In this document: piece after piece, positions 21,950 through 39,235 of the stretch | Numbering within the stretch: position 1 is the first letter of the stretch | How the letters are laid out: each line of letters starts with the position of its first letter | Origin: Myxococcota bacterium | Lineage (GTDB): Bacteria > Myxococcota > XYA12-FULL-58-9 > JALHOP01 | Assembly: GCA_022842935.1 (NCBI GenBank) | Contig: JALHOP010000017.1 | Coordinates: 62,001 to 126,000 of the forward strand | Direction of reading: 5' to 3' | DNA: 64,000 nt | Made by a program: the position numbers and the translations under genes | The notes under the pieces: generated by a model | The model's input: the letters and a program-made list of their open reading frames with translations, nothing else | What the model was told of the DNA's origin: nothing | Database searches by the model: none

Positions 21950-22800
21950 AGACTCGTTCCCCCGAAGTCGGGCAGCGCCTGGATCTTCATTACGACTTTC
22001 CGCTGCTTGCTGTCCTCGGCAACAGTCGTCTCCCAGTCTTTCGTTGCTGCCGGCCCGCGACCCGATACAACGAAAAGATGGTCGAGACACTGCGCCAAAC
22101 CCAGGCCCCCCGGAGCCGGGGGAGCGTCGCCAATTGCCTCGCGGAGCGCGAAAAACACTTCCTGAGCTCTTGCTCCGCTGAGGCGGACATTGTTGTAGAG
22201 CTTTTCCGCCGTCTTTGCCTGCACCCCCCTCGCGAGCTCTTCTCGATTCGCAATGGCTGCAGTGCCACATCGAGCGGACGTACCAGCCCGCACCGCATCC
22301 GTGTGCCCTTCGAGTGTGATTGAGAGCTTGGCTGAGGGTGCGTTGTGGCTGGGCGCCGACATCCCCAGGCTGGTCGGGTCATTCTCAAGCGCGAACTGGC
22401 AGACGTTGCGAAGCACAGGGTCTGCAACCTGCTGGACGTTTGAGCGGCGCTTAGAGCGCGGGTGATCAACTAAAGCGCAGGCGCCCTTTTCGAAAGTTGC
22501 CGCAGTGAACTCGATCTCCAACCCAAATGCACCGTCACGCTCGACGGTAGCGATCTCTTTGGGCAACTCCGCGCTAAGCGTCGAGAACAAGCGTTCGACT
22601 GCATCCCGCGTCGACACGATCTTGTTCTCGTAAAGCATGGCTCGTTTGGAAGCAGCTTCCTTTTCACGCAGCGCGCGCTTCTCGCTCTGCTGCGCACGCA
22701 CCATAAAAATGACAGCGATAACGAGAAAGATGGCAGCGATTCCCGCCATCAGGTCCGTCAGCGAGTGCGAGAAGCGGTCAGATGGGCGAGCGGCGGCCAT
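21946..22800 (-). CDS. zorB: ZorB, MotB/OmpA-like membrane component of Zorya
   Basis: This 284-residue protein has one N-terminal membrane helix, LTDLMAGIAAIFLVIAVIFMV (from about residue 14), with the aspartate at its start that in MotB-like stators carries protons. A coiled linker follows, and an OmpA-like peptidoglycan-binding domain is marked by SITLEGHTDAVRAG. ZorB dimers sit inside a ZorA pentamer and anchor it to the cell wall. It starts 4 bases after the zorA stop and overlaps zorC, so expression is coupled. Confidence 0.9.
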   Translation of the reverse strand: MAAARPSDRFSHSLTDLMAGIAAIFLVIAVIFMVRAQQSEKRALREKEAASKRAMLYENKIVSTRDAVERLFSTLSAELPKEIATVERDGAFGLEIEFTAATFEKGACALVDHPRSKRRSNVQQVADPVLRNVCQFALENDPTSLGMSAPSHNAPSAKLSITLEGHTDAVRAGTSARCGTAAIANREELARGVQAKTAEKLYNNVRLSGARAQEVFFALREAIGDAPPAPGGLGLAQCLDHLFVVSGRGPAATKDWETTVAEDSKQRKVVMKIQALPDFGGTSL

Positions 22801-24804: not shown

Positions 24805-27571
24805 TTAGGTCAGCAGCGGTGATCTCGAGATCCTCCACAGGTGTGAGGAAATCGCGAGCCACAGCGCGTTTCGCTTGAATCCGCGCGTTCAGCTGCGCAT
24901 CGAATCCACTCTCGGGCGCCCCAGGATGGTGCAAGAGCGGGTAGTAGACATGCACTGGACGCGTTTGCCGCATCCGGTAAGCGCGTCCTGTTGCCTGGTC
25001 TTCCTTCGCAGGATTCCACCATCGCCCGTAGTGAATGACGTGGTTCGCGGCTTGAATATTGAGACCCGCACCAGCCGACCGCGGGCTCAGGATGAGCACA
25101 TTGAATCCCGGGTGGCTGCTAAAGCGGTCAATGATTTCATTTGCTCGGTCGCGCGCCCCAGGACTTCCGTTGATGACGTCGACACGAGGGAGCTTGAACT
25201 CCCGCATGCAGAGTGAAGCCAAGATCCACTGCATGTCCCGCCAGAACGTGAAGATCAGTGCCTTCTCATCCTTAGCGGCAATGGTTTGGAGGATAGCGAG
25301 CGTGGCCCTCACTTTGGGGTTGGCGCCCGTTGTTGGTGTGAGGGCCGCTTCTCCGTCGAGCAACTGCGGGTGCTGATAGAGCTTCTGAAGTCGGTCGATG
25401 ACAGCGAAGGGTCCGCGACCCGCCATCTCGCGTCGCACCACCGTCTCTAGAGCAGCCTCGTGGGGCGTCATTTCCACTGGCACAAACTGAGGCTCCACCA
25501 TCTTGGGCACATCGCGCAGAACGTCTTTTTCTCTTCGCAAAACGACCGAACGCTGGGTCGGGTAACCGAGACGGCGTCGCACGTCGGCGATGCCCGCCTC
25601 ACCGCGCTTCTCGTACGCAGCCTCGAACTCCGTACGCGTCCCGAATGCTCGCCGATCACTGCGCTGCTGCAGGGCTTCGAAAATGGCCCAAAGATCTGAG
25701 AGACGATTTTCTACCGGCGTGCCGGTGAGGCCGATGGCGAATTTGCGCTTGAGTCCCTGTGCGGCCCGAGCGCGTTTCGTTGTCTCGTTTTTGATCTCTT
25801 GAGCTTCATCAAATACGACGTGCTCAAAGTCGAGTCGGAGAAGCGAGAGCTGATATGCCGAAAGCGTGTCGTAGTTGGTAAGGATGAGGCGATGGCGTGC
25901 TAGCGCGTCGATTGCAAGCGAGTTGCCCCGACGAAAGGCGTCGAGCCCTGGCCCGTGTAGGATGACTGTGTTCGCGAACACCTCGTCTCGAAAAAATTCG
26001 TTTAACTGCGTGCGCCACCCCTCGAGCAGGATGACTGGCGCTACAACCAGGTCGGTCCCTCGCCGCTGTTCGGCAAAACGAAGCGCGAGAAACGCTGCCA
26101 CTTGTAACGTCTTGCCGAGCCCCATGTCGTCAGCCAGGAGGACGCCAGGTTCGTTCCGTCTCGCGTGCTGGCAGAGCCACGCTATTCCGCGTCGCTGATG
26201 TGGCTGTAGACTAATCGAAGGGCGAAGCAGCTCGCCAAGACGGTCCCAGGGCACGATACTCTCGTCGATCAAGGGGCCGTTGACATCGAAATTGGTCTGG
26301 GAGAGTTCTTCGATGATGGCGGTGTAGCGCTTCCCCGGCTGCTCAAGCGCGCGTGGATCCCCCTCCTTCGAAGCGTCTTCATGCAGACGCACTGCTCGAC
26401 GGACCGTATCCACGAGCTCGGACGTCGCTGCGATACGACGTCCTTCGTAGGTCACCGTTTGGGAGCGGCCGGCGAGTGGGGGCTCGCGAGTCACTGCGAG
26501 CGCCGCCTCACTTAGAAATCCTCTAGCGTCTTCGGCCGTTGGCATCGTGACTGAGGTTCGAGGACCTCCAGCGCCCTCGGTCATCGTGAGCTCGAGGAAC
26601 GGCGCCGACGGATCAGTATCCCGGCCGACCCAGCTCCGACTCTCGGCGACAAAGACGAGAGCACGCTGGGAGCGCGCAACCTCAAAGCCAAGAACACGGT
26701 CCGCATAGGCACTCAGGTCGATCGACGGATCCGGGTCCCACCCTTCCGGAATGACTAGCGAGGGGTCTGCGACTTCGGCGCGCGCTCTGCTTACGGGCAC
26801 ACGCTGTCGCTTCTTCGCTTCGCCCGCTAGCTTCACCACTTCGGACGGCAAGAGCATTGGACGAGATGCGTCGGCAGCGAGAATTCCAGTTGCGGGGTCC
26901 AGAGCATCGAGCGGAACAGGTTGGGTCTCACCTCCCTCGGTGATCGCCTCGAGCTGCAGAGAGACCGTTGGCTGCGCAGTGTCGCCTGGAACCCACCCCA
27001 GTTTGAACCGCGTAGGTGTCTGCACTTCGAGCTTCGCTAGGTGCGCGTCGAAGGTAACGACGAGACGGCCTTCAAGCAGAATCGCGGCGCGGTCGAGTAT
27101 CGCTCGTACTCGCGCCCAGCGAGCTAGCTGTTCCTGGCGGCTCGAGCCCGGGTGAATTCGCGACTCGCGAATCGCAAATGCTACAACCGGTAGCCACGGG
27201 CGATTACCGGGCCACCGGGGTTCCGCGCCGACGGCGACCTCTTGGTCGTCGACGACAAAGACGAGCTGAGACTGAGCTGCTCCGACAAAGCCGACAACAG
27301 AAACGTGTACCCGCTGCGTCGGGAGGCTGAACACATCCGCAAGACAATGATGCAGCGCGACCCACTCCTGCGTGGTCTCGACGTCGCCAGTTGCGGGGAG
27401 CTCACCAAGCGTGCACCACCGGTCAAAGGTGGTGACGATGAAGTCTCCATCGACTACGGCCGCGCCCTCAGTCTGCGAAAAAATCCAACGAACGCGCTCG
27501 CGCGCGAGGTCACTAAGGCGACTAATTTCTAGACGTAGGTCCACAGGTGTCCCGACAGCACATCCCCGCAT
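24773..27571 (-). CDS. zorD: ZorD, Snf2-type helicase of type I Zorya
   Basis: The product of about 930 residues has a non-motor N-terminal half and a C-terminal Snf2 motor. Counting from an upstream in-frame codon at 27631, the P loop DDMGLGKT is at 501-508, the box FDEAQEIKN at 607-615, then IGLTGTPVENRLSDLW, and the second lobe with LSPRSAGAGLNIQAANHVIHYGRWWNPAKEDQ-like sequence ending in a QATGRAYR box. ZorD presence and the absence of ZorE define type I Zorya. In described systems zorD is last; here it is first. The start is uncertain; ATG 27571 is preferred because the codons beyond it run into rpoC debris. Confidence 0.88.
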   Translation of the reverse strand: MRGCAVGTPVDLRLEISRLSDLARERVRWIFSQTEGAAVVDGDFIVTTFDRWCTLGELPATGDVETTQEWVALHHCLADVFSLPTQRVHVSVVGFVGAAQSQLVFVVDDQEVAVGAEPRWPGNRPWLPVVAFAIRESRIHPGSSRQEQLARWARVRAILDRAAILLEGRLVVTFDAHLAKLEVQTPTRFKLGWVPGDTAQPTVSLQLEAITEGGETQPVPLDALDPATGILAADASRPMLLPSEVVKLAGEAKKRQRVPVSRARAEVADPSLVIPEGWDPDPSIDLSAYADRVLGFEVARSQRALVFVAESRSWVGRDTDPSAPFLELTMTEGAGGPRTSVTMPTAEDARGFLSEAALAVTREPPLAGRSQTVTYEGRRIAATSELVDTVRRAVRLHEDASKEGDPRALEQPGKRYTAIIEELSQTNFDVNGPLIDESIVPWDRLGELLRPSISLQPHQRRGIAWLCQHARRNEPGVLLADDMGLGKTLQVAAFLALRFAEQRRGTDLVVAPVILLEGWRTQLNEFFRDEVFANTVILHGPGLDAFRRGNSLAIDALARHRLILTNYDTLSAYQLSLLRLDFEHVVFDEAQEIKNETTKRARAAQGLKRKFAIGLTGTPVENRLSDLWAIFEALQQRSDRRAFGTRTEFEAAYEKRGEAGIADVRRRLGYPTQRSVVLRREKDVLRDVPKMVEPQFVPVEMTPHEAALETVVRREMAGRGPFAVIDRLQKLYQHPQLLDGEAALTPTTGANPKVRATLAILQTIAAKDEKALIFTFWRDMQWILASLCMREFKLPRVDVINGSPGARDRANEIIDRFSSHPGFNVLILSPRSAGAGLNIQAANHVIHYGRWWNPAKEDQATGRAYRMRQTRPVHVYYPLLHHPGAPESGFDAQLNARIQAKRAVARDFLTPVEDLEITAADLIGDQPSTASP

Positions 27572-27679
27572 TTGCAGTTGCGACGTGCAGAGGGGGTATT
27601 CCGCGCTGGCGCGAAAGCGCGAGCTATCCACAATACCGGACTTTCTGGCAAGTCACGCCCAACGCGTGGGTTTACCCGC

Positions 27680-28000
27680 TCAAACCCGTACCCGCCGGGA
27701 TCAACCGCCCCATGATGACGTTCACCCTGTGCTGGCCGGCAACCGCTGTTCATCGCGCGCTCATTCTCGAGCTAGAACTCGGTCTTCTCCACCTGCTCGT
27801 CGATGAGGAACGTGGTGTCACCAACGTCCTTCACGCGAACGCGGCCCAGCATCTGACGGCAACTGCACTCAATGTGCTTGTCGTTAATGCGGACGCCTTG
27901 CAGACGGTAAACTCCCTGGATCCCATCGACCAGGTAGCGACCGAGCATCTTCTCGCCCATGACGCGGAGGATGTCGTGCTGTCCCGGTCAGACGTAGCTC
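27680..28000 (-). pseudogene. rpoC: Eroded 3' fragment of rpoC (RNA polymerase beta')
   Basis: On the minus strand about 60 codons read as the conserved beta' C-terminus: [30 protein letters not shown], then [22 protein letters not shown] stop follows EKTEF; in the same frame beyond it come ENER and GxRPAQGE-like residues. After a loss of about 50 codons and a frame change, VIMGRLIPAGTG appears. These blocks occur in this order in intact rpoC. A TGA also interrupts the upstream side. The true rpoC is not in the window, so this is a duplicated or imported scrap at the right edge of the defence island. Confidence 0.8.
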
Positions 28001-28080
28001 TCCGTCAACAACATGCATGACTCACGACCTGGATGTGGATCCGCTAAACCGGTGTAGCACGACGGAGACAGCCAGCAACA

Positions 28081-28911
28081 TCACAACGACTCGTTGAGCG
28101 AGGTGTTGTCGACGCTGGGCGCTGAACGGACGCGCATGGAGAGCGCCCAATGCTCGAGCTCGATGCTGTGACGCTTGATGTGGACGGCGTGGGTCTTGTC
28201 GTCGTTGAACATGGAGACCTCGAGACGCGTCTGCCCGACGATCCAAGCCACCCGTTCGCCGACGATAAAGGGGTCACCAAGTTGCTTCTCGAAGCTCTTC
28301 AAGACCTTCGAGAAGAGATTGAAGGCGTCCTCAGTCGACGTCGCATGAACAGCAACGTCGATTGCAACGAGTCGGTCGGCCATGACCATGTAGGACGTGG
28401 TGGCCTCGCGACCGTATTGTGCGCCGACCGAGGCTAGGCCAACGCCGCTGGGCTGGACGTTGCGAACGCGCGCGCGGATCTCACTCTCCGACATTCCCCA
28501 GCGCAACGCCCCGAAGCCATCCCGGGAACGATAGCGACGGAGTGCCCGAAGTGCTTTGGCTTCGAGCTCGACGCGCGCACGTGCAACGCGCTCGTGCAAC
28601 GCCCGCTCGAGTCGCGCCTTGCACTCCTGTGTCTCGCGAGCGCTGCGCGCCGCTTCCCAGAGTTGCTGGTGGCAAACGCGCCAGTAGCGTTTGTCGAACT
28701 CCAGGCCGGGGATCGGTGCGGCGAGCAACTCTGGCGCGTACGAGTACGGGTCAACACCTGGGTAGCTCTCGAGCCGCGGCCTTCCGTGGCGCGCGTTCAT
28801 GAAGTCGAGCTCGACGAGAGCTTGGGCGCAGTTGTTCTCTTCGAGCTGGGCGGCCTCGAAGCACTGGTGCGTTGGCGCGGCGAGGACCATGAACATGAGC
28901 AGAAAGAGCAT
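28081..28911 (-). CDS. Secreted protein of unknown function, member of a local two-copy family
   Basis: The start ATG 28911 is preceded by AAGGGGG and gives a signal peptide, MLFLLMFMVLAAP, with cleavage likely just after. The mature part has a helical, charged middle (residues 80-130) and a C-terminal beta-rich part with FGALRWGMSESEIRARV and SFEKQLGDPFIVGERVAWIV. The WGMSxxEIRxRV pattern is common in periplasmic proteins of unknown role. A shrunken paralogue lies at 36976-37137 with the same promoter-proximal sequence. A 16-bp dyad-like site lies 44 bp upstream of the start. Function unknown. Confidence 0.7.
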   Translation of the reverse strand: MLFLLMFMVLAAPTHQCFEAAQLEENNCAQALVELDFMNARHGRPRLESYPGVDPYSYAPELLAAPIPGLEFDKRYWRVCHQQLWEAARSARETQECKARLERALHERVARARVELEAKALRALRRYRSRDGFGALRWGMSESEIRARVRNVQPSGVGLASVGAQYGREATTSYMVMADRLVAIDVAVHATSTEDAFNLFSKVLKSFEKQLGDPFIVGERVAWIVGQTRLEVSMFNDDKTHAVHIKRHSIELEHWALSMRVRSAPSVDNTSLNESL

Positions 28912-28954
28912 CGATGAGCCCCCTTGGACGACTCCTGGACCGTACGCCGCGCAT

Positions 28955-28970
28955 CGGACGTAGAATGTCG
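28955..28970. promoter_or_regulatory. Copy 1 of a shared 16-bp dyad-like site
   Basis: CGGACGTAGAATGTCG fits the pattern CGGACRT-N4-TGTCS found also at 37181 and 38251. Its left edge is exactly 44 bp upstream of the start codon of the secreted-protein gene at 28911. Imperfect symmetry (GGAC...TGTC) suggests a repressor or activator site overlapping a promoter. Confidence 0.5.
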
Positions 28971-29129
28971 CTCTCAACGGGGCTCGCGGTTGATTGCCAA
29001 GGTCGTTCGGTGGCTCGGCGGCGACCGATGCGACGTCACATGTGCAACGTGATGGTCCGTCCCTGGAAGGTTGTGTAGGGCCCGAGTGCCCGCACCATCT
29101 CGCTCGCGCGCAGGTCCGCTTGAATCGCG

Positions 29130-29435
29130 GCGATGGCCTCTTACGCGCGAAGGCGTCCCACTCGGCATCAGGGTGCCTGAGGAGAAATGCTCGGGTCTCC
29201 CTGACGGCCTCTTTGAAGCCCTTCGCGGTCGGACCGGAACCCAGAGCTGCACGAGCTTGTCGAGCCCCGGGTCGCTACCTCGGCGTGCCTGGTGGCTCGT
29301 TTCGCGGCCCTGCCCTCCGTGGCAACGAACACCAGCGATTCGGCAGTCATAGGCTCTCCGACTCGACCACCCGTTCGAGATAGCGAAACGACCCGTCCGC
29401 GAGCTTCATCTGCCCCGGCGTCCGGCATTCCCAGT
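29130..29435 (-). pseudogene. Decayed duplicate of helicase C-terminus plus mazE
   Basis: From 29435 to 29351 the minus strand reads ECRTPGQMKLADGSFRYLERVVESES then stops, nearly the same as the last 25 codons of the helicase ending at 33518. After it come the remains of a MazE-family (DUF3018) antitoxin: KLVQLWVP, then after a one-base loss PTAKGFKEAVRETRAFLLRHPD in another frame. The functional-looking copy is at 33185-33493. The order helicase end then mazE is the same in both places, so this is a duplicated block that has eroded. Confidence 0.8.
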
Positions 29436-29497
29436 GGCCGCCGTCAACGCCGCCCCGGCCGCGTCCAGGTCACGCTGCGTCATCCGCCGCGATTCTC

Positions 29498-30400
29498 TCA
29501 CCGCCAAGGTCCACCAGCACCCCAGTGTTTCTTAAACGTGCCCCTCTCCGACAACGGCTCCTCGACGAAGCGAGCCACGCCTTCGACGACTGAGGCGAGG
29601 TCGCCGATATCACTGCCCTCCACCGCCCGCGAAAACGCAGCCCACTGCGTCTTCTTGACCGCGTCGTCCGCGAACTCGCGCGTGAGCGCCATAGGCAGCG
29701 ACGTGCGGAGCGGTGTGCCCCGGCGCGCGAAGGTTGCACGGATCGCACGCGCGAGGGTCTCGCCGTCAAAGTCGAACATTCTGGACAGCACGAACAGGTC
29801 GTAGAAGTCCTTCATGCGACTGTTCGCGAGGCCGAGCTTCACCATCGCCTCGAGCTTCTCGGCCACCACCGTCTCGCGTGGGTAAGCTCGGAGCTTCGGC
29901 GCCGGGAACTCGAGCAGTGCAGGGAACTCGACGACGCGTGCCTCCGGCGTAATCGCATCGCCGAAGCCAATGTCGACCTGGAGCCGAACCTTCGCCGTGG
30001 CCACATGACCGATGAGGACGACGCGAATGCCGCCATATTGTTGCTCTTCGCGGATCGGCCCGAGCTCGAGCGAGGCAGCGTCGAAGCGGACGCCGTCGTC
30101 CTCGACATCGAGGGCGAGGACGTCGGCAAAGACGGATCTGATGCGCTCCACACTGGGCTCGCCAAAGCCTAGTAGATCGACATCGCGCGTCGCGCGGTGT
30201 GGATGGCCGGTCCACAGCGTGAACAATGCCGCGCCTTTCAGGACGAACTGGGGACCGTGCGCCGAGCTTGCGAGGCGATAGAGCAGTCTTTCGTTGGCGT
30301 AACGTGTCAGGAGGAGCTGAAAGTCCTCACCGCGCCGACGTGCGAGCTGGAGCAAGCGGTCACGAACGGAGGCTCCGATGTTCTTGGGCGCCTTCGTCAT
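29498..30400 (-). CDS. abiEii: AbiEii/AbiGii-family nucleotidyltransferase toxin
   Basis: ATG 30400 is chosen because it overlaps the antitoxin stop; further in-frame upstream codons lie inside the antitoxin gene. The product of about 300 residues has the family signature FVLKGAALFTLWTG (with the KGG-like turn), RATRDVDLLGFG with paired acidic residues, a third acidic strand in RLQVDIGFGD, and the late ETVVAEKLEAMVKLGLANSRMKDFYDL block typical of AbiEii. These toxins use nucleotides, GTP in the best studied case, and stop growth on phage infection. The C-terminus runs to 29498 with about 60 residues past the usual core. Confidence 0.9.
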   Translation of the reverse strand: MTKAPKNIGASVRDRLLQLARRRGEDFQLLLTRYANERLLYRLASSAHGPQFVLKGAALFTLWTGHPHRATRDVDLLGFGEPSVERIRSVFADVLALDVEDDGVRFDAASLELGPIREEQQYGGIRVVLIGHVATAKVRLQVDIGFGDAITPEARVVEFPALLEFPAPKLRAYPRETVVAEKLEAMVKLGLANSRMKDFYDLFVLSRMFDFDGETLARAIRATFARRGTPLRTSLPMALTREFADDAVKKTQWAAFSRAVEGSDIGDLASVVEGVARFVEEPLSERGTFKKHWGAGGPWR

Positions 30401-30999
30401 GAAAGCGCCTCGAGGTACGGCCGCATCAGCACGCCGACGCGGTCCGCGTGCGCCGCGTCGATCAGTGCATCCGTTCCACCTCGGTGCCGCTGGAGGTAGT
30501 CGCGCAGGGCAGCAAGGGCAACGTCGAGCCCAATATGCCGTCGGTAACGGAAGCAATCGGCGACGGTCTTCGCCGCGGTGGTGATACGTACCGTGACGGC
30601 TTCAATCACGCGCGTCTCGACACCGTGGGTGAGCGCGTTGCCGCTCGCCCGCACAACCTCGAGCTTGGGATAGGAGAGCGACGGCATGCGGGCGTGGCGA
30701 TCGATCATGACCCAGACCGCGTGGGGCACCTCGGTCGTCAGCTCGTGCACTTGCAGGGCGCTCGCAAGACAAATGACGGCGTGGGGCACACGCACAGCGA
30801 CCTCGGCGAGGGAGTGAAACTCGGTGACGGGTGCATCGGGAACCCTATAGAGCCCTCGGTCGACCTGCTCGATGAGACCCCGCTCCCGGAGCCGACTGAG
30901 GTAGGCACGGGGGACGCCGGCCGCGGCAAGGTCACGAGCCCGAATGGGGCCCTTGCGCGCAAGCCGAAGGACAACGTCCGCTTTGGTCGATCGAGCCAT
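30397..30999 (-). CDS. abiEi: AbiEi antitoxin/repressor, partner of the AbiEii toxin
   Basis: The 200-residue product starts at ATG 30999 with an N-terminal winged helix (LARKGPIRARDLAAAGVPRAYLSRL) and a wing with LYRVPD. A C-terminal domain follows with the AbiEi-type pattern from VCLASAL through VMIDRHARMPSL to VRITTAAKTVADCFRYR. The overlap with the toxin gene (ATGA at 30397-30400) gives the usual antitoxin-first order. AbiEi normally binds inverted repeats in its own promoter; only a weak short dyad (ATAC...GTAT near 31033) was noticed upstream. Confidence 0.9.
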   Translation of the reverse strand: MARSTKADVVLRLARKGPIRARDLAAAGVPRAYLSRLRERGLIEQVDRGLYRVPDAPVTEFHSLAEVAVRVPHAVICLASALQVHELTTEVPHAVWVMIDRHARMPSLSYPKLEVVRASGNALTHGVETRVIEAVTVRITTAAKTVADCFRYRRHIGLDVALAALRDYLQRHRGGTDALIDAAHADRVGVLMRPYLEALS

Positions 31000-31133
31000 G
31001 ATGCTTAATGTAGGTCCAAACAAATTCCGACATACGTTTTGTATCACATGGTTTTCGCGATGCCTACCCCTAGCGTCACCGCAGTGAGGCCCAGGTTGAC
31101 CGCAGGCCGAGTGCGTGTGCGAATCGGCGGCCC

Positions 31134-32459
31134 ATGCTCCTGCGCTGCACCACCAAGCTTGCCACCGCCCTCCGCTTGGGCGCACTCCCCCGCATCGAGC
31201 TCGCCGAAGCACAGGCGCCCCTCTCCGAGTGGTACGCGAACATCGTCCGCACGAGCGCAGGACGCCTGGTGGTGCTCATGGAGGCGCAGACGCGTCTCGT
31301 CGTCCTCTCCCCACACGCGCACGCCGTGCGCCTCATGAACGACCTCGAAGGCCGCATCGCGAGCCTGCTACGCTCCCTCGCGTTCCCCGACGCGATCGTA
31401 AGCGACGTCGTCCAAGGTCTTGGCACCACGCAATTTGCGAAGACCGCTGATCGCAAGCTCATCGGCGCGCTCAACGAGGCATGCAGCTGTGTAGCCGTAG
31501 CGGACGAGCGACGCGGCCTTGCGCGACCCGGCGCCCTCGATGACCTCCAGGGCTTCCTCGCGCACTTCGTGCACCGCATGCCCGGCACCTTCCCCGACCA
31601 GGTCGCACGAGAGATCCTGTGGCCAGACCGCGCGGGCGTGACAAGGGCATCCGCGCCACTCGAGCTCGTCGTGCACACATGCGCGGATCACACGATGCGT
31701 TGTCACGCACTCGGGACGACGCGCGAGGTCGTGCTGCACGCTCGAGCGTACACAGAGGTACCCGGCGAGATCCTCGTCGTGCAGTCTGCCGAGACGTGGG
31801 AGGCGGGTGGAGAAACGCATGTCGAAGGTAAGGTCGTCGACCATCGCTGCGACGCCAAGCTGCTGGGACTTTCGCCGCTTGCTCTCGAAGACCGCGGCGC
31901 CTGGGATCCCGACGACGCATACTGGGGCGAAGAAGGCGATCCCCTCCCCGCGTGGGCCACGGCGATCGTCGCGCGAGGTCCGCGGTCATGCTTCGAGATG
32001 GAGCAGGTGCTCCCGGGCGTCGACGCCGATGACTTCGACGCCGACCCCATCCTCGCGTCCATCGACCTCGCGGACGCAGGCGACACCATCGCGGCGCGCG
32101 CGGTCCTGATGGGCCTCCTCGCGCAGGATCTGCGCTGCCTCGACGCGCACGCACACTTGGGGAACCTCGCCTTCGACCACACACCCGAGCGCGCGCTGCG
32201 CCACTACACCGTCGGCACGCGCATCGGCGAGCTCTCTTTGGGGGCTCGCTTCGACGGCGTCTTGCCCTGGCGCCTCATCGACAATCGTCCGTTTTTGCGG
32301 TGCATGAACGGACGCGCCCTGTGCCTCTGGCGCCTGAACCAAGTAACCGAAGCGGCGGAGATCTTCCGCGACCTGTTGTGGAAGAACCCAGATGACAATC
32401 AAGGCGCGCGCTTCAACCTTGCGGCGATCGAAGCGGGCAAGAGTTGGACACCCGACTAG
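31134..32459 (+). CDS. DUF6933 domain fused to a TPR-like C-terminal domain
   Basis: Residues 1-160 match the DUF6933 pattern: [14 protein letters not shown] at the start, then SEWYANIV and [14 protein letters not shown]. Residues 310-441 form helical repeats typical of a tetratricopeptide-like cytoplasmic family: [50 protein letters not shown] and [27 protein letters not shown]. No membrane or signal sequence is seen. Function is unknown; DUF6933 sits near toxin-antitoxin and mobile genes in many genomes, and here the gene is between AbiE and VapBC modules. The fusion is the odd feature. Confidence 0.75.
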
Positions 32460-32635
32460 CCGCGACGCTTCACGCGCCGACGAGCGTCCGCCACCGCGGT
32501 AGTCGCGCAGCCCGTATTTCGCTTCGTAGGTAGGATCCGCGTGCCGGGGGGCGGTAGTTGTCTCGAAGGGCGCTGTCGTCCTTCCAGCGATCGCCCTCGG
32601 CCGTGCTTGACGTCTACCTCTAGCTCTACCATTCC

Positions 32636-32896
32636 ATGCCTATGGCGTTGAGCATCAAAGATCCCGCCACCGAAGAACTTGCGCGCGAGCTCGCGCGCGA
32701 GACCGGCGACAGCATCACCGGCTCGATCGCGACGGCGCTGCGGGAGCGTTTGGCCCGCGTCCGACAGGCCAAGCGAAAGCGCTCGTTCGCTGATGAGGTG
32801 CGCGATTTGTCGGCGCGCTACCGCGCGTACCCGCTGTCTGACCCACGTCAGCCCGACGCCCTCGTCGGCTACGACGAGCACGGGCTTCCGCGCTGA
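32636..32896 (+). CDS. vapB: VapB-family antitoxin (Rv0623-like)
   Basis: The 86-residue protein starts [18 protein letters not shown] after an alternative ATG two codons earlier, with the ribbon-helix-helix-like N-terminus of the Rv0623 type of VapB and a C-terminus ([18 protein letters not shown]) that fits the PIN toxin groove. The partner toxin gene follows at once but is broken. The antitoxin itself appears intact and may still act in trans or simply persist. Confidence 0.85.
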
Positions 32897-33076
32897 TGGC
32901 CATCGACACCTCCGCCATCGTCGCGCCATGCTCTTCGAGGAACCCGAATCGGCGACACTCCTCCAGGCGCCCGAGGGCGCCGACGAGCCTACGCGCTTGC
33001 CTCAGTCCGCAATGACGTACTTCTCTTCGTTGGCGATGACTTCCGACGCACGGACGTCAGGGCGGCGTTGACCTAG
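32896..33076 (+). pseudogene. vapC: vapC with internal deletion and frameshift
   Basis: The reading begins right at the vapB stop (TGATGGCC) with [10 protein letters not shown], the first PIN motif, then shifts frame (MLFEEPESATLLQA) and jumps to the C-terminal PIN motif (YALASVRNDVLLFVGDDFRRTDVRAALT) that ends at 33076. About 70 codons of the middle, including the second acidic motif, are missing. No active toxin can be made. Confidence 0.85.
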
Positions 33077-33270
33077 CGACAACCGTCGGAGCGCAGCAGC
33101 GCGTGAGTCCTGGTAGCCCAATGATTCTGTCCAGCATGAGCTGAGAAACCCGCTGGAGCCCATTGGTAGGACTCGGGTCGACGGTCATGCGCGTAAAAAG
33201 GCGGTGGTCGTCCCTCGAGTTGCGAGGTGAACGGCACGACGATGACCATCGGATACGGGAGAAGGTGATC
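33073..33270 (-). pseudogene. mazF: mazF remnant lacking its N-terminus and frameshifted
   Basis: Two frames together give a MazF/PemK core: VQSDHLLPYPMVIVVPFTSQ, then after a shift MTVDPSPTNGLQRVSQLMLD and IIGLPGL, the last conserved MazF helix. The first 30 or so residues of MazF are missing, so the end of the antitoxin gene runs straight into mid-mazF sequence. The gene ends against the broken vapC, tail to tail. Confidence 0.75.
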
Positions 33271-33493
33271 CGATTGCACCCTTACGCGCGAAGGCGTCCC
33301 ACTCGCCATCAGGGTGCTTGAGGAGGAACGCTCGAGTATCCCTGACGGCGTCTTTGAAGCCCTTCGCGGTCGGATCAGGAACCCAGAGCTGCACGAGCTT
33401 GAAGCCGCGATGGCGCATTTCGGCTCGATGCTTTTGCAATCGCGTCCCGGCGTTCTTCGCCGGCTTTTCTGGTCGACGCTTCACTGGCTTCAT
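33185..33493 (-). CDS. MazE-family antitoxin (DUF3018) with out-of-frame mazF tail
   Basis: Residues 1-70 are a normal DUF3018 antitoxin: a basic N-terminus with RLQKHRAEMRHRGFKLVQL followed by WVPDPTAKGFKDAVRD and HPDGEWDAF. After residue 71 the frame enters the mazF remnant in the wrong frame, adding about 31 unrelated residues. It follows the helicase gene by about 24 bases on the same strand. With the toxin gone it is probably an orphan antitoxin. A decayed second copy is at 29130-29350. Confidence 0.75.
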   Translation of the reverse strand: MKPVKRRPEKPAKNAGTRLQKHRAEMRHRGFKLVQLWVPDPTAKGFKDAVRDTRAFLLKHPDGEWDAFARKGAIGSPSPVSDGHRRAVHLATRGTTTAFLRA

Positions 33494-33517
33494 GACCCGA
33501 GTGTTGCATGAAGTGTT

Positions 33518-36500
33518 TCATGTAACAAAGCTCTCCGACGCGACCACCCGTTCGAGATAGCGAAACAACCCATCCGCGAGCCTCATCTGCCGCGGCGTCC
33601 GGCATTCCATGTCGAACAGAGTCGCGCTCGTCACCAGCACGCACGCACACTTCGCCCGCGACGTCGCAACGTTGAGCCGATTCGCGCTGAGCAGAAACTC
33701 CGCGCCGCGCGGTGCATCCGCAATGGTCGAGCTCGTCATCGAGACGATCACTACCGGCGCCTCTTGGCCTTGGAACTTGTCCACGGTCCCAACGCGGGCG
33801 CCGTCGGGCAACGCCGCGCGCAGTCGATCGACCTGGGCGTTGTACGGCGCAACGACCAAGATGTCGGCGATGCCCAGCGCTGCGTCTTCGCCGTTGGCGT
33901 TGCGCCACGTGGCGCCGTGGGCGGTGAGCTTGGCGTAGAGTTGCCGAATCGTCTCGACCTCGGCACGTGATTCGTTGCGCGAGCCCTCGTGGTCAACCGG
34001 CAAGTGGTAGAGCCCTGGGAGCACCAAGGGTGCGGCATGGATGCCTTGCTTCTCGAGACCTGCCACCGACTTCAGGCGCTCCTCGTAGAAGGTGGTCGTG
34101 AACGCAGTGACGTCGGGATGAAGCCGCCATGTCTCTTCGAGGAACAACCCAGCGTCGTCCTTCACCGTCACAGCGTCGCCGAGCAGATGCTCGAGCGCCG
34201 AAACACCCGCACCGTCGGGATGCGAGCCACGCTGCGGTTGCTCGAGCTGTCGCGGGTCGCCAAGCAGAACCACGTTGTTTGCTGCCGTCGCGACCGCGAG
34301 CGCATTCGCCAGCGAGAACTGTCCGGCCTCGTCGATGAACAGATAGTCGACCTTCTTCACGCGCGCGTTGGGGGACGACCACAACCAAGACGTGCCGCCG
34401 ACCACGTTGAACGACTTGTCCGCGATGGCAGCGTAGGCTTCGTCGTTGTCATCCGTCTCGATGACATCCTCGCGATGCTCGTCGAAATCCTTGATCTTCT
34501 GCAGGCAACGAACCTTGAGACGGAGCTTGCCTGCGGTGGTCGCGACGCGGTCCATGAGGTTCGAAATGACCTTGTGACTCACGGCCGTCACGCCGACCGA
34601 AAATCCAGCGTCCGCCAATGCCGCGATCATGTGAGCGCCCGTGAAGGTCTTTCCCGTGCCGGGTGGGCCTTGGATGGGCAGCACACCGCAGCTCAATGAC
34701 TTGGCTAGCCGTGTCGCCCGCGCAAGTGTGTTTTCACCCTCGCGGCGCGCAAGCTCTGACGGTCCGCCACGAAGCCGCGGCTGCCGGCGCTGCAGAAGAT
34801 CGATGGCGGCGCTCTGCCCCTGCAGCGCTGCGCGTGCACCATCGGCGACAGCAGTTGCGAGCTCGAGAAGTGCATCACGCATCGGGGCCGCGCTGATGAA
34901 TTCGTGAAAATACGCGTCGGTGAGCGGCAGGTCGGAGCGCGTCTTCACGCGGTGCAAGACGAGCACGCAGTTGTCGCGATCGATTGCGACCACGTTGCCA
35001 ATATCCTTCTCGTCCTCGGGCGCGTTGACACGGTACGCATCGTCTCCCACCCGAACATCGACAACCTGCGGTGGATACGCGTAGCGCCGCCACAGCGGAT
35101 TGTCGTCTGGTTCGGCGGGTAGTGGCGTGAGCCCCGCAAGCGCATGCGGCTCGTCCTCGACCTCCTTGGCCGGCAGGTCACGCAGGCGGAACAACTCCCA
35201 CCACACGACCTTCTCCTCGCGGATGTGGAACTCGACCAGGTTTGCGAGAAGTCGAAGCGCCGCAGATTCTTCTCCGGTCGTCTTGTCTGCCATCGCCGCC
35301 AAGCGCTCGCGCAGCTCACGCGCACGCTTCTTGGCAGCTTCGCGCTTTTCGTCCGCCGGCGGTTTCACCACAACCTGCGGCCGCGCAAAGCTCGTGTTCG
35401 CCCTCCTCTCCTCTTCGCTACGCAACCCCTCGAGCCAATCGCGTAGTTCCCACGTGGCAAAGCAATCGTCGCGATTGTAATCGCGGACAACGTCCATCCA
35501 CTGCGGATGGATGTCGGTCTTGCCGCCCTCGGCGAGCTCGAGCTCCGCTTCGAGACGACGCTTGTGCTCGCCGAGCTCATCGAGCTTCACCGCGCGCACG
35601 TAACCGAAACACGGCTCGAGCTTCTTGATGGAGTAGCTCTCGACGCCGATCCGCACGCCCTCGCGCACGACGGCGAGCAGGTCGATGAACACGCCTTTGC
35701 GCAGCATGTCGTCAATCTGTTCCGCGCGGCTCGCGTGGCGCAGCATGAGGCGCTTGAGAGCCGCCGGCTCGTACGGGGCAAAGTGGTAGACGTGCATGTC
35801 TGGATAGCGACGTCGCCGCTCCTCCAGCCAATCGACGAACGTCTCGAACGCGGCTTTTTCGGTGACGTGATCGAGCGCCCAGAGATGGTCGAACCGCCGC
35901 TCGCCGGCGTCGCGATACGCGTAGCCGAACAGGTACTCGAGACCACCGCCGCGGACGAACGGGTCGCCTTCGAAGTCGAAGAAGATGTCGCCCTCGGACG
36001 GCTTGGGGAGGCGCAGCAGTCCCTTACCTTCCGCCATGGGTAGCAGCTCATGCTTCGGTACCGCGGCGCCGCGTGACGCGAGCTGCACGCGCGCCTGATC
36101 GCAGGCGCGTTCGATCGACTCCTTCGAGCCGCGCGATGGCTTCCATGTGAGCGGCAGCTCTTCGCGCGCAAGCCGCGTGAGCGTCTCGATGCCCTGCTCG
36201 CCGAGCACGTCGCGCTGCTGACGGGACAGGCGCGCGACGAACGACAGGTGATCGACCGCACGCAGATCGCTCTCGCACTGGCGGAACCACTCGCAGGTAT
36301 CGCACTTCGGTACGGGCTCGGGCTTGGTCGTCGCGAGAATGTCCGGCGACGACACCGCCTCCTCGAAGCGCTTGCGGACGGCCCGGTAGTACGCCCGGTA
36401 ATCGGCGAACAGCATGCTGTCGAGGACGAAGGTCCCTGCGTCGACACCAGGCGCAACGACGGTCATCGCGCGCGGCCGAACGCCCTGCATCTCTTCGAGG

Positions 36501-36979
36501 ATGTCGGAGTACAGCGCGAGCTGCAGGACCGCGGTCGCCTTGGTCTCACGCGAAAGTTTCGTGTCGTAGGCTTCGTACGACCACGTAATGTCGTTGCCAC
36601 TCTCCTCGCGGTCGTCGCGCGGATGCTTCACCTTCACGAGGAAGTCCGCATAGCCAAGCCAGGTGCCGCTGGTCATCGTCGCCTGCGGGATGACGTCGTA
36701 GCCCTCGCGCATCAGGGCGATGACGCGTTCGCGGCTGTGAGCCTTCTGGCCCGGCAGGAGCTCTGCGATCACCTTCCCGTCAGCGCGCAGCTTCTCGAGG
36801 TAGGCCGCCTCGTGCCGCAGACCGCGTTCTTTCAGCGTCTCGCTCGTCGGGTCGACGTAGCCGGAGGGCGGACGCTTCTTTTCTGCCACCTCGCGACTGA
36901 GCCGCGTGAGGTGCCGGCACCCGAGGGAATTCGCAAGGTCTGTCGCCGACAGACGCAGCGCTGCGTCAACGACCTTCAT
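33518..36979 (-). CDS. TM0106-family RecB-like nuclease fused to a superfamily-1 helicase
   Basis: The 1153-residue protein begins with a RecB/Cas4-like nuclease region of about 230 residues ending in CDTCEWFRQCESD, cysteines of the kind that hold an iron-sulphur cluster. A ribonuclease H-like domain follows (IFFDFEGDPF, then VYHFAPYEP, then YNRDDCFATWEL). The last 420 residues are an SF1 helicase with GPPGTGKT, FIDEAGQFSL, GDPRQLEQPQ and TVDKFQGQEAPVVIVSM before LNVATSRAK. Such proteins process nucleic acid ends; some are defence-island residents. The start overlaps the stop of a 53-codon secreted-protein gene (ATGA). MazE follows. Confidence 0.88.
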   Translation of the reverse strand: MKVVDAALRLSATDLANSLGCRHLTRLSREVAEKKRPPSGYVDPTSETLKERGLRHEAAYLEKLRADGKVIAELLPGQKAHSRERVIALMREGYDVIPQATMTSGTWLGYADFLVKVKHPRDDREESGNDITWSYEAYDTKLSRETKATAVLQLALYSDILEEMQGVRPRAMTVVAPGVDAGTFVLDSMLFADYRAYYRAVRKRFEEAVSSPDILATTKPEPVPKCDTCEWFRQCESDLRAVDHLSFVARLSRQQRDVLGEQGIETLTRLAREELPLTWKPSRGSKESIERACDQARVQLASRGAAVPKHELLPMAEGKGLLRLPKPSEGDIFFDFEGDPFVRGGGLEYLFGYAYRDAGERRFDHLWALDHVTEKAAFETFVDWLEERRRRYPDMHVYHFAPYEPAALKRLMLRHASRAEQIDDMLRKGVFIDLLAVVREGVRIGVESYSIKKLEPCFGYVRAVKLDELGEHKRRLEAELELAEGGKTDIHPQWMDVVRDYNRDDCFATWELRDWLEGLRSEEERRANTSFARPQVVVKPPADEKREAAKKRARELRERLAAMADKTTGEESAALRLLANLVEFHIREEKVVWWELFRLRDLPAKEVEDEPHALAGLTPLPAEPDDNPLWRRYAYPPQVVDVRVGDDAYRVNAPEDEKDIGNVVAIDRDNCVLVLHRVKTRSDLPLTDAYFHEFISAAPMRDALLELATAVADGARAALQGQSAAIDLLQRRQPRLRGGPSELARREGENTLARATRLAKSLSCGVLPIQGPPGTGKTFTGAHMIAALADAGFSVGVTAVSHKVISNLMDRVATTAGKLRLKVRCLQKIKDFDEHREDVIETDDNDEAYAAIADKSFNVVGGTSWLWSSPNARVKKVDYLFIDEAGQFSLANALAVATAANNVVLLGDPRQLEQPQRGSHPDGAGVSALEHLLGDAVTVKDDAGLFLEETWRLHPDVTAFTTTFYEERLKSVAGLEKQGIHAAPLVLPGLYHLPVDHEGSRNESRAEVETIRQLYAKLTAHGATWRNANGEDAALGIADILVVAPYNAQVDRLRAALPDGARVGTVDKFQGQEAPVVIVSMTSSTIADAPRGAEFLLSANRLNVATSRAKCACVLVTSATLFDMECRTPRQMRLADGLFRYLERVVASESFVT

Positions 36980-37137
36980 GGGTCACGACCTGGATGGGGA
37001 TCCGCTAAAGGATCACCAAATTCCTTCTCGAAGGTCTCGACCAGCCTATCGATGCACCTGTTCTCTTCCAGCTGCCGGGCCTCGAAGCACGGACTCGGGG
37101 AAGCTGTGAGCACGATCACGGGGAACAGAGCGAGCAT
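36976..37137 (-). CDS. 53-residue secreted mini-protein, shortened paralogue of the protein at 28081
   Basis: ATG 37137 opens a frame with a signal-like MLALFPVIVLTASPSP, then CFEARQLEENRC, then TFEKEFGDPL and a stop that overlaps the helicase start. The first 28 residues align with the start of the larger protein (CFEAAQLEENNC), and the FEKxxGDP block aligns with residues near its C-terminus, so about 200 residues in between have been lost in frame. It may be a relic that now only couples translation to the helicase. A 16-bp dyad-like site lies 44 bp upstream, as in the paralogue. Confidence 0.6.
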   Translation of the reverse strand: MLALFPVIVLTASPSPCFEARQLEENRCIDRLVETFEKEFGDPLADPHPGRDP

Positions 37138-37180
37138 CGAGCGGCCTCCTTGGATGGCAGGCTAACCCTACCCGGCGAAT

Positions 37181-37196
37181 CGGACGTGTAATGTCG
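37181..37196. promoter_or_regulatory. Copy 2 of the shared 16-bp dyad-like site
   Basis: CGGACGTGTAATGTCG differs from the copy at 28955 at two positions. It is 44 bp upstream of the start of the mini-protein/helicase operon and lies 19 bp beyond the end of the WYL regulator gene. Confidence 0.5.
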
Positions 37197-37214
37197 CGTT
37201 CGGCAGCGCAAGCA

Positions 37215-38207
37215 CTAGCCCCGACGCTCCGCCAGCTTCGCCGCCAGCATGTCCGGTGCAACGACGGAAGCGCTCTTGCCGTACCCACAGATCCAATGCA
37301 GCAGCTCTTCGGTGACCCCCACGCGCAGCGACACCTCGATGGCTCCATCATCCACGTCGCGCACGCGCATCGACGGATGCCACAAGCGGCTGCGCACATA
37401 GGGCGCGACCTTCGCGTCGAACCGCACCACCACCTCGCACGGATCCTCACCAACGATGATGCCGAACGCGCCTGAGAAGAACTGACTCGGGTCATAGTCG
37501 GCCGGGACGATGAAGGTCTCCTGGCCGAGGTCCGTCGTCGCGATGCGCTCGAGCGCGAAGGTCCGCACCGCATTGGCGTACTGCGAGCGACCGACCACGA
37601 AGAGCGCGTGGTTGTGCAACACGAGCGTGTACGGGTCGAGGGTGTCCACATAGGATTTCTTGCCTGGGCGCTTGTATGTCATCGCGATCCGCCGCTCGCT
37701 GACGATGCCCTCCACGACGTCGTCGAGCACACCGTCAGCGCTCGCGTAGCTACGTGGACTGCCGACAGTGCAGTGAAACTTCTTGGGCAGCGCCGCGCGG
37801 ACGTTGTCGCGGCGAGAAGCAAGGCGCAGCGAGAGCTTGTCGTAGAGCGAATCGATCGAGCGCTTGAGATCGGTGCCCTCGGTGAACGCGAAGACGTTGC
37901 GCCCCATGTACAGCGCGATCATCTCGCCCATGGTGATGCGGAACATCTCGACCTTGCGCGTCGATGCCGGGCGGAAGCGCTTCTCGTTCTCCGGGGTGCG
38001 CCCGTCTTCTTCGACTGCGACGATGTCTTGCAGCACGTTGAGGTCGCGCTGGATGGTGCGGCGATCGACGCTGAAGAGCTCCATGAGCTGCGGGATGGTC
38101 ACGTACTGCCGATGATGCAGCAGCTCGTACATGCGCAGCAGCCGTGAAGCTTGGGAGTACTCTGCCTTGGGGCGACCGACCTTCTTGGGAGCGAGTCTGG
38201 TAGTCAC
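37215..38207 (-). CDS. WYL-domain transcriptional regulator
   Basis: The product of about 330 residues has an N-terminal helix-turn-helix (YVTIPQLMELFSVDRRTIQRDLNVL), a linker rich in basic residues, a WYL domain (RIAMTYKRPGKKSYVDTLDPYTLVLHNHALFVVGRSQ), and a C-terminal WCX-type region ending near EELLHWICGYG. WYL regulators often sense nucleic acid or nucleotide ligands and control defence genes (BrxR and CapW are examples). GTG 38207 is preferred to the longer GTG 38288 because the shared 16-bp site then lies 44 bp upstream, as at two other genes. It is divergent from the FHA gene. Confidence 0.88.
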   Translation of the reverse strand: MTTRLAPKKVGRPKAEYSQASRLLRMYELLHHRQYVTIPQLMELFSVDRRTIQRDLNVLQDIVAVEEDGRTPENEKRFRPASTRKVEMFRITMGEMIALYMGRNVFAFTEGTDLKRSIDSLYDKLSLRLASRRDNVRAALPKKFHCTVGSPRSYASADGVLDDVVEGIVSERRIAMTYKRPGKKSYVDTLDPYTLVLHNHALFVVGRSQYANAVRTFALERIATTDLGQETFIVPADYDPSQFFSGAFGIIVGEDPCEVVVRFDAKVAPYVRSRLWHPSMRVRDVDDGAIEVSLRVGVTEELLHWICGYGKSASVVAPDMLAAKLAERRG

Positions 38208-38250
38208 GTGCTCGATTGTAGCGGACAACGGAGTGAGCGGGTGACGTAAT

Positions 38251-38266
38251 CGGACATATCCTGTCC
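38251..38266. promoter_or_regulatory. Copy 3 of the shared site, a perfect 5-5-5 inverted repeat between WYL and FHA genes
   Basis: GGACA-TATCC-TGTCC at 38252-38266, preceded by C, is the most symmetric of the three copies. It lies between divergent genes: 44 bp before the WYL start and 33 bp before the FHA start. An autoregulatory operator of the WYL protein is the simplest reading. Confidence 0.55.
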
Positions 38267-38299
38267 ACCGACCACCGTAGGACACCACGAGGTGCTCCT

Positions 38300-39235
38300 A
38301 TGGATTCACGGCGCTTTGTCTCCAGCTTCGACGCAACCCACTACAAACACCCGGTGATCCGCGATGAGGCGCACGCCCGTAGCGCCGTGTTCGCGCACTT
38401 CCAAGCCATGCGAGCGATGCTCGCGCAGTCCGAGGCGGAGGGCGTGCTCATCGCCGTGATTGGGCCGGCGGGTGACCTCGAAGCCTTGCGTCTCCTCACG
38501 TCTCGAGAATCGGGCGGCGCGATGTGGTGCATTGGCCGCCACGCTATTGCGGACATCCGCCTCCAGGCGAGCGAGGACGCACCGCTGCGCGCGCTCGCAG
38601 TTCACGTCGTCAGCACTGAGATGCCGCACGTGCGCATCATCGATCTGCAGACACCGAGTGGGTTCTTCGTGCGTGGCCAGGGACCGTGCCGGGACATCAC
38701 GCTCATCGGTCCGGCGCTGCTCGAGCTCGCGGGATACCTTCTCATTGTCGCTCCCACAGCAGGCGGGAAGGCACTGCGGGCCAATAGCGCGTCGGCGTTC
38801 TGGGACGTTCTTGCGCACCCGCTCGTCCGCGATGTCGTCGCCATGGGCGGGCCCATCGCAGAGGAAGACGAAGAGCCAGTGACCTCGATGCGGTCGTTCC
38901 CCCACATCGGGAGGGACACCACCGCGCGCGCCGTCTTCGACATCGTCTTCGCCGACGCACACATCATGAGCGCCGTCTCGCCGGTAGAGCTGCGCCGCGG
39001 TGTGCTCTGCGGCCGTTATGCTCGTTGCGAGCTGGGCGGCCGAGCGCTTCACGCAATGCAAAGGGTTTCGCGCGTTCACTTGCTCGTGAGGCTGGCCGGC
39101 GAGCGTTTGTATGGCTTTGACCTCGGAAGTTCCTGCGGAACGACGCTCAACGGGGTCACACGGCGCTATTTCGAGATCGCGCCTGGTGACATCGTCGAGC
39201 TCGGCGGCGAAGTGCGGTTGCGGCTGATCACCTGA
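38300..39235 (+). CDS. FHA-domain protein
   Basis: The 311-residue protein ends with a clear FHA domain at about residues 235-305: RGVLCGRYARCEL, then QRVSRVHLLVRLAGERLYGFDLGSSCGTTLNG and GDIVELGG. FHA domains bind phosphothreonine. An earlier segment (CIGRHAIADIRLQ...VSTEMPHVRIIDLQTPSGFFV) looks like a second, degenerate FHA. A GAGG site precedes the ATG. No kinase gene is adjacent, so the phosphorylated partner is unknown. It is divergent from the WYL regulator. Confidence 0.85.
   Translation: MDSRRFVSSFDATHYKHPVIRDEAHARSAVFAHFQAMRAMLAQSEAEGVLIAVIGPAGDLEALRLLTSRESGGAMWCIGRHAIADIRLQASEDAPLRALAVHVVSTEMPHVRIIDLQTPSGFFVRGQGPCRDITLIGPALLELAGYLLIVAPTAGGKALRANSASAFWDVLAHPLVRDVVAMGGPIAEEDEEPVTSMRSFPHIGRDTTARAVFDIVFADAHIMSAVSPVELRRGVLCGRYARCELGGRALHAMQRVSRVHLLVRLAGERLYGFDLGSSCGTTLNGVTRRYFEIAPGDIVELGGEVRLRLIT

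Follow-up and report, generated by a model that had tools for sequence, protein, structure and literature searches.

Among WYL-domain transcription regulators, DriD of Caulobacter crescentus (Protein Data Bank (PDB) entry 8tp8; PMC11804915) is a homodimeric activator with the consensus ATACGAC-N7-GTCGTAT. Its sites overlap the −35 position and keep a single spacing to weak −10 elements, and the one next to driD activates the operon that diverges from it, not driD itself (PMC12340889). By our own count on the letters of PMC12340889, three published DriD promoters have 11 bp from the dyad core to the hexamers CAATCT, CAAGGT and CAAGCC, and DriD promoters match the −35 hexamer at one or two of its six positions. 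The mycobacterial PafBC activates at promoters without the usual −35, as a heterodimer in which PafB alone contacts DNA (PMC11804915), and SiwR of Mycobacterium smegmatis is a homodimeric WYL activator that binds a 19-bp imperfect palindrome between −35 and −10 and controls DinB-like genes (PMC10693628). WYL regulators of defence operons bind elsewhere: the palindromes of CapW (CBASS) overlap −10 (PMC9122588), and the inverted repeats of BrxR (BREX), with 11-bp arms and a 5-bp spacer, are found on the downstream side of a predicted −10 box (PMC9122601). In 2023 the phage-defence WYL regulators were described as repressors, with WYL activators belonging to genotoxic stress (PMC10693628), and the WYL transcription regulators of defence named in 2025 were again repressors (PMC11888443). 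We describe here a 64,000-nucleotide stretch from a Myxococcota bacterium (contig JALHOP010000017.1, positions 62,001 to 126,000; hereafter the window), in which a WYL gene stands among dyad sites that precede several defence-type operons. From the sequence we consider it probable, at about 0.7, that a defence regulon in the island is under the control of this WYL protein as a DriD-like activator.

The WYL regulator is a 330-residue protein (37215..38207, minus strand) with HTH, WYL and WCX domains (Pfam WYL 7e-13, WCX 2e-15, and HTH_11). A first-pass annotation of the window had reported three sites sharing CGGACRT-N4-TGTCS, and these are present: CGGACRTNNNNTGTCS has three exact matches within these 64,000 nucleotides (at 28955, 37181 and 38251), where 0.04 are expected from shuffles and none of 100 shuffles reached three. 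S1 (28955..28970, minus strand) is the dyad CGACATTCTACGTCCG, with arms GAC-N7-GTC and a −10-like TACGGT at 28939-28944, 11 bp past a 15-bp core; S2 (37181..37196, minus strand), 18 bp from the WYL stop codon, is the dyad CGACATTACACGTCCG, with a −10-like TAGGGT at 37165-37170, again 11 bp past the 15-bp core. S3 (38251..38266, given no strand) lies between the WYL gene and a divergent FHA-domain gene (38300..39235, plus strand, assigned by a domain match). It had been called the most symmetric of the three and is in fact a perfect dyad (GGACATATCCTGTCC, with symmetry GGACAGGATATGTCC). On its FHA side TAGGAC (38278-38283, plus strand) lies 11 bp from the core, and on its WYL side TACAAT (38215-38220, minus strand) is 31 bp away. 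The WYL start at GTG 38207 is a chosen one, as the open frame reaches 38288 and would then include S3; the GTG stands 7 nt past TACAAT, and its use would give a leaderless mRNA. When the window was searched for GAC-N7-GTC-N12-TANNNT, S1, S2 and one new place, 16691-16722, came up, with 0.19 matches expected in all. This is S4 (16691..16706, plus strand; CGACATTCTCCGTCCG), one mismatch from CGGACRTNNNNTGTCS and followed by a −10-like TATCCT at 16717-16722.

Relatives of the WYL protein were sought in 195 genomes of the phylum. The best, at 45% identity (the next reach 30-31%), is found in G193, a metagenome-assembled Myxococcota genome (RA.bin128) of the same order and another family, on contig JAKLEG010000091.1. 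A two-row alignment searched against genome contigs returned that contig alone; no relative was found in genome contigs with the single protein, or in viral contigs with the two-row alignment. The 15-kb G193 contig carries two of the three exact motif matches of its genome together with a third site that has one mismatch. These sites precede a 273-residue gene without known family, a DUF2779/RNase H-like nuclease gene, and a 154-residue gene that lies upstream of a 347-residue gene and a SIR2-domain gene. Two of them have an ATG 6 nt past the hexamer, and their mRNAs would accordingly be leaderless. Also on the contig is a relative of the window FHA gene (26% identity), which is not among the matches listed in the genome-wide FHA search, where 11 of 14 candidates were scored. 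Upstream of the G193 WYL gene itself, TGACTAGATATGTCT contains GAC-N7-GTC, with no TA hexamer at 11 bp from the dyad, as computed on the WYL side and judged by eye on the other, and was left unassigned.

Counted over seven promoters (S1 to S4 and the three G193 sites), GAC-N7-GTC stands on the gene strand in every case, within a 15-bp core of the form [CG]GAC-N7-GTC[CG]. TANNNT is found at offset 11 past the core in five of the seven, against 2/308 for all other offsets from 0 to 44; leaving out S4, which was found by that very pattern, the count is four of six. The looser YANNNY stands 11 bp past the core in all seven, S3 having been read in the FHA direction only after the hexamer pattern was known. 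The best match to TTGACA, with spacers of 16-18, reaches one or two of six positions in six promoters and four of six in S2 (for the three sites first reported, S1 2/6, S2 4/6 and S3 2/6). By these counts the sites lie over the predicted −35 position and leave the predicted −10 free. The 44-bp spacing that the first-pass annotation had emphasised is accurate as a measurement, since in-frame ATG, ATG and GTG codons (28911, 37137 and 38207) do stand 44 bp from the left edges of the three sites. As a functional distance it was rejected, because the two G193 ATGs mentioned above sit 6 nt past the hexamer and the hexamer of S3 is on the FHA side; it is the distance to the hexamer that is constant instead.

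By sequence comparison the WYL protein is far nearer to the activators DriD and PafBC than to CapW or BrxR. A single-sequence search of the PDB placed 8tp8 (4e-8, residues 16-325) and 9pfq first, the aligned sequence of the latter being the same as that of 8tp8; after three chains labelled only ‘WYL domain-containing protein’, PafC was the next specifically named chain, and the chains of 7tb5 and 7qfz, which we take to be CapW and BrxR, were absent up to E 10. A four-sequence profile gave 2e-17 for 8tp8, 4e-10 for PafBC and, much weaker, 1e-4 for 7tb5 and 1e-3 for 7qfz. The domain order of winged HTH, WYL and WCX, nearest to DriD, is that of the window protein, and the profile values, compared without a WYL tree, do not place it in the BrxR/CapW branch. 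A structure predicted from a two-row alignment (mean pLDDT 51.6, pTM 0.32) was not used. A presumed PafBC promoter motif, TGTCR...TANNNT, has similar spacing, though a look for it in passages of PMC11804915 did not find it.

The likeness to DriD extends from the protein, with its HTH-WYL-WCX architecture and best PDB match, to the promoters, with GAC-N7-GTC over −35 and 11 bp to a poor −10, and to the arrangement in which a site adjoining the regulator gene faces the divergent gene. Nevertheless, the arm flanks here are GGACA/TGTCC as opposed to ATACGAC/GTCGTAT, one conserved WYL arginine is an alanine, and the predicted targets are Zorya, a nuclease-helicase and a Z1/C5-methylase operon, where those of DriD are didA, bapE, recJ and dnaG. 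The downstream arm also lies near position −24/−26, which PafB contacts, although PafBC is a heterodimer with PafB alone on the DNA and the window has a two-armed dyad with a single WYL gene (PMC11804915). SiwR is likened to the window protein by its description (PMC10693628).

The first-pass annotation had instead drawn its analogy with BrxR and CapW, which do regulate defence operons as WYL proteins and do recognise palindromes or inverted repeats (PMC9122588, PMC9122601). On that model the dyads over the −35 and spacer would block polymerase until phage infection, with S3 serving for autorepression, and a dimer over −38 to −24 would be expected to exclude polymerase. The named WYL regulators of defence are repressors (PMC10693628, PMC11888443) and the S2 dyad contains a −35-like hexamer with four of six matches; even so, we regard repression as unlikely. 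Sequence kinship is with DriD and PafBC, and in six of the seven promoters no more than two of six positions match at −35, which leaves little to block. CapW sites overlap −10 (PMC9122588), whereas the window dyads neither overlap nor follow it, their core ending 11 bp upstream of the hexamer. That the spacing from GTC to −10 so sharply favours 12 bp fits a protein-polymerase contact better than blocking. Autoregulation of the WYL gene, also part of the earlier proposal, is doubtful, with S3 31 bp from the WYL-side TACAAT and 11 bp from the FHA-side TAGGAC, and because at driD the adjacent site serves the divergent operon alone (PMC12340889).

In the host genome (G000; 46 contigs, 6.28 Mb) CGGACRTNNNNTGTCS has nine matches, against three for the reversed pattern. 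The first-pass annotation had raised the prospect of many copies at random positions, and this is not what is seen: apart from the three in the window, four matches lie within long open frames and two within a CGGATGTC-type tandem repeat, so the only exact copies preceding genes are those in the window. Across eight genomes of the order the motif clusters in two, namely those with the WYL gene or its 45% relative, and at that gene. It is this clustering that is unusual, with three of eight layout matches in G000 and two of four in G193 falling within WYL loci. The six other genomes gave no WYL match at 1e-20 and no hit to a seven-promoter model better than E 0.1; the exact pattern occurs in them 0-3 times and the reversed control 0-4 times, only the DNA adjoining the matches having been inspected. 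The same model (R2) recovers its own training sites and found no further strong site among the candidates scored, at most 150 in each of the eight genomes, the next best in G000 scoring 12.2 bits.

These data also bear on whether another regulator or sigma factor might read the sites, the WYL gene being a bystander or a target. The position of S3 beside the WYL gene would suit a target, and the host genome contains a tandem of two other WYL genes (G000:C1:312540-314023), possibly a PafB/PafC-like pair. These are, however, 29% and 23% identical to the window protein, and GAC-N7-GTC-N12-TANNNT is absent from the 19.9 kb round them. With the motif clustering at a related WYL gene in both genomes, and the layout recurring near WYL genes across the phylum as described below, we find a different reader quite improbable.

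Recurrence was assessed at 35 other Myxococcota WYL loci (E ≤ 1e-20; up to 10 kb on each side; 513,258 bases) by tallying matches to GAC-N(g)-GTC-N(d)-TANNNT, with g of 4-10 and d of 8-16. The cell with g=7 and d=12 holds 14 matches, spread over 11 of the 35 loci in 8 genomes, while the remaining 62 cells sum to 26 with none above 2; 30 dinucleotide shuffles averaged 0.73 matches in the same cell, the highest value being 3. A control of 38 loci picked for FHA or secreted-protein relatives (129,770 bases) yielded one match (L066 overlaps a WYL locus). Among the places found, a site in G157 precedes recA, divergent from the WYL gene and at the activating distance (L046:10174-11348), and recA is likely under WYL control in that genome. 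In G158 a site precedes an AAA ATPase gene divergent from the WYL gene, and in G010 a site precedes an FHA gene that is itself upstream of the WYL gene. The four G010 loci (L118, L120, L121 and L122) are paralogous, and in each a DriD-type site accompanies an FHA gene and a WYL gene; three of them have a second DriD-type site before another gene, which in L118 encodes a RING-finger-like-domain protein. By tblastn, FHA relatives occur at 10 of 36 WYL loci, G193 included. Two of the ten are the query loci, and four are the G010 paralogues, whose FHA genes match that of G193 and not directly that of the window.

Such recurrence largely contradicts an explanation by chance and duplication, in which duplication gave S1 and S2, and S3 and S4 match by accident. 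The first-pass annotation had already recognised the duplication, and S1 and S2 do share 70% DNA identity over 139 bp from the dyad on, a stretch that covers dyad, leader and the first part of the secreted protein; the S4 dyad resembles both over about 20 bp. Around S3, as had also been stated, the DNA has no significant BLASTN match to the surroundings of S1 and S2. Given three exact matches where 0.04 are expected, the discovery by the arm-and-hexamer rule of S4 in front of another defence-type operon, and the recurrence in G193 and 8 further genomes, chance and duplication as the whole explanation is scarcely credible.

We propose that DriD-like activation at this locus might proceed as follows. 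With a dyad at each site and a single WYL gene, the protein would act as a homodimer, which would sit on [C/G]GAC-N7-GTC[C/G], centred near −31, over the missing −35 and 11 bp before the −10 hexamer, and would recruit RNA polymerase to promoters too weak alone. The regulon would comprise the secreted-protein/Zorya genes (S1), the TM0106 nuclease-helicase (S2), the 145-residue protein/Z1/C5-methylase genes (S4) and the divergent FHA gene (S3). The trigger, by analogy with DriD and PafBC, may be a nucleic-acid signal of damage or infection, upon which several defences would rise together. The earlier suggestion of one regulon is retained in this scheme, and it is likely the neighbouring WYL protein that binds, given the clustering of the motif at WYL genes in two of eight genomes. 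The nuclease-helicase operon and the secreted paralogue, both named at the time, are predicted members, and the FHA gene is probably another.

Several observations weigh against this activator reading. The hexamers TAGGAC on the FHA side of S3 and CATCCT at the G193 site G2 do not fit TANNNT, the −35-like hexamer in the S2 dyad has been mentioned, and a sigma-70 promoter scan of 27500-38400 was empty, though this says little as shuffles average only 1.2. In number, the relatives of the WYL protein above 31% identity come to one only. A model built on the three G193 sites (R1) scores the window sites weakly (E 0.49-5.2), ranking S3 first, S2 second and S1 fifth, and chiefly matches the dyad. 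Genome-wide, the C/G-flanked layout is not above its reversed control (8 against 5 in G000, 4 against 6 in G193), and one of the three layout matches on the G193 contig (L044:1823) lies within the SIR2 gene and looks accidental. Seven of the 14 matches at other WYL loci fall in the four paralogous G010 loci, and 24 of the 35 loci have no match. Since S1 and S2 arose by duplication and S4 is similar to both, the window offers fewer than four independent events, and 450 bp of recombination debris separates S1 from zorD. Finally, the R-W-R-L-D-R stretch of DriD reads R215-T-F-A218-L-E-R221 in the window protein, so the outer arginines R215 and R221 are kept and the middle one is Ala218, as it is also alanine in the G193 relative. 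In PafBC a pair of WYL-domain arginines is needed for single-stranded DNA (PMC11804915), and we infer that the middle position corresponds to R211 of PafB; because it is Ala218 here, single-stranded DNA is not assured as the ligand.

What the locus brings together is a damage-activator promoter code and its protein kin with several anti-phage-type operons, Zorya among them. Were the proposal correct, a positive signal, shared among unrelated defences, would induce them and switch them on together. A wider version, to which we give even odds, holds that a WYL activator of the DriD type that senses nucleic acid, and is at times paired with an FHA protein, runs a whole Myxococcota defence island and that GAC-N7-GTC-N12-TANNNT is a general WYL-activator promoter code from Caulobacter to Myxococcota. 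The spacing rule makes other WYL regulons searchable, having already yielded S4, recA and the FHA-WYL gene pairs, and WYL-activator regulons would then be predictable from sequence. Searches of open-access literature returned no account of defence operons under a WYL activator, of a WYL-regulated Zorya or of a dedicated Zorya regulator; most subscription journals fall outside that literature, which leaves absence unproven.

The genes behind the sites are as follows. After S1 comes a secreted-like protein of 276 residues (28081..28911, minus strand), with a secretion-signal-like N terminus judged by eye, and then, all on the minus strand, a ZorD-like SNF2 helicase of a type I-like Zorya (24773..27631; PADLOC ZorD1 6e-132), a ZorA-like protein (22804..24804; identified by a weak PADLOC ZorA1 match of 2e-4 together with its position between zorD and zorB), a ZorB-like protein (21946..22800; PADLOC ZorB1 1e-11) and a ZorC-like EH_Signature protein (20534..22270; Pfam EH_Signature 4e-23, PADLOC ZorC1 2e-13). 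The true start of zorC is probably downstream of 22270, because the frame overlaps zorB. By PADLOC and Pfam the full type I set of zorA, zorB, zorC with its EH signature and zorD with its SNF2 helicase thus stands together, in one direction, behind S1, from which it would be co-transcribed; it differs from type I Zorya in that the gene order here is D-A-B-C. Neither this operon nor S4 had been noticed in the first-pass annotation.

After S2 the first frame is a secreted-protein remnant with an internal deletion (36976..37137, minus strand), which overlaps by ATGA a gene for a TM0106-family RecB-like nuclease fused to an SF1 helicase (33518..36979, minus strand; TIGR03491 2e-62, with AAA_12 and RNase_H_2). 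At S4 the hexamer is 34 nt from the ATG of a 145-residue protein (16757..17194, plus strand) that has no Pfam match and overlaps the next gene by ATGA. That gene encodes a Z1-domain helicase (17191..19146, plus strand; Pfam Z1 6e-35, PADLOC Helicase_II 1e-85), whose open frame spans 16996-19146 and whose start at 17191 is ATGA-coupled, and a C5 cytosine methyltransferase gene follows (19290..20396, plus strand; Pfam DNA_methylase 4e-57). The same defence island contains a type III restriction-modification pair (10368-16311, minus strand) and an AbiEi/AbiEii pair (29498-31212, minus strand), and the window search found no site of this layout at either.

The history of S1 and S2 can be followed in two further matching blocks of 70 bp and 36 bp. 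The 70-bp block, 83% identical, pairs 27979-28048 on the S1 side with 36940-37009 on the S2 side, both on the minus strand. On the S2 side it spans the last part of the remnant and runs into the opening codons of the nuclease-helicase; because the block matches this start, the promoter and secreted-protein gene probably once preceded a copy of the nuclease-helicase. At the junction between the secreted-protein gene and zorD (27673..28048, minus strand) the block is followed by pieces of the 3′ end of rpoC at 27673-27978, with 91% identity over 257 bp and 82% over 57 bp and the intervening rpoC sequence missing; 62 residues are 94% identical to the host's own rpoC (contig C13). Judged by this structure, the rpoC pieces are a recombination scar, and from the junction it seems that the putatively WYL-controlled promoter cassette was copied and its downstream gene swapped for Zorya.

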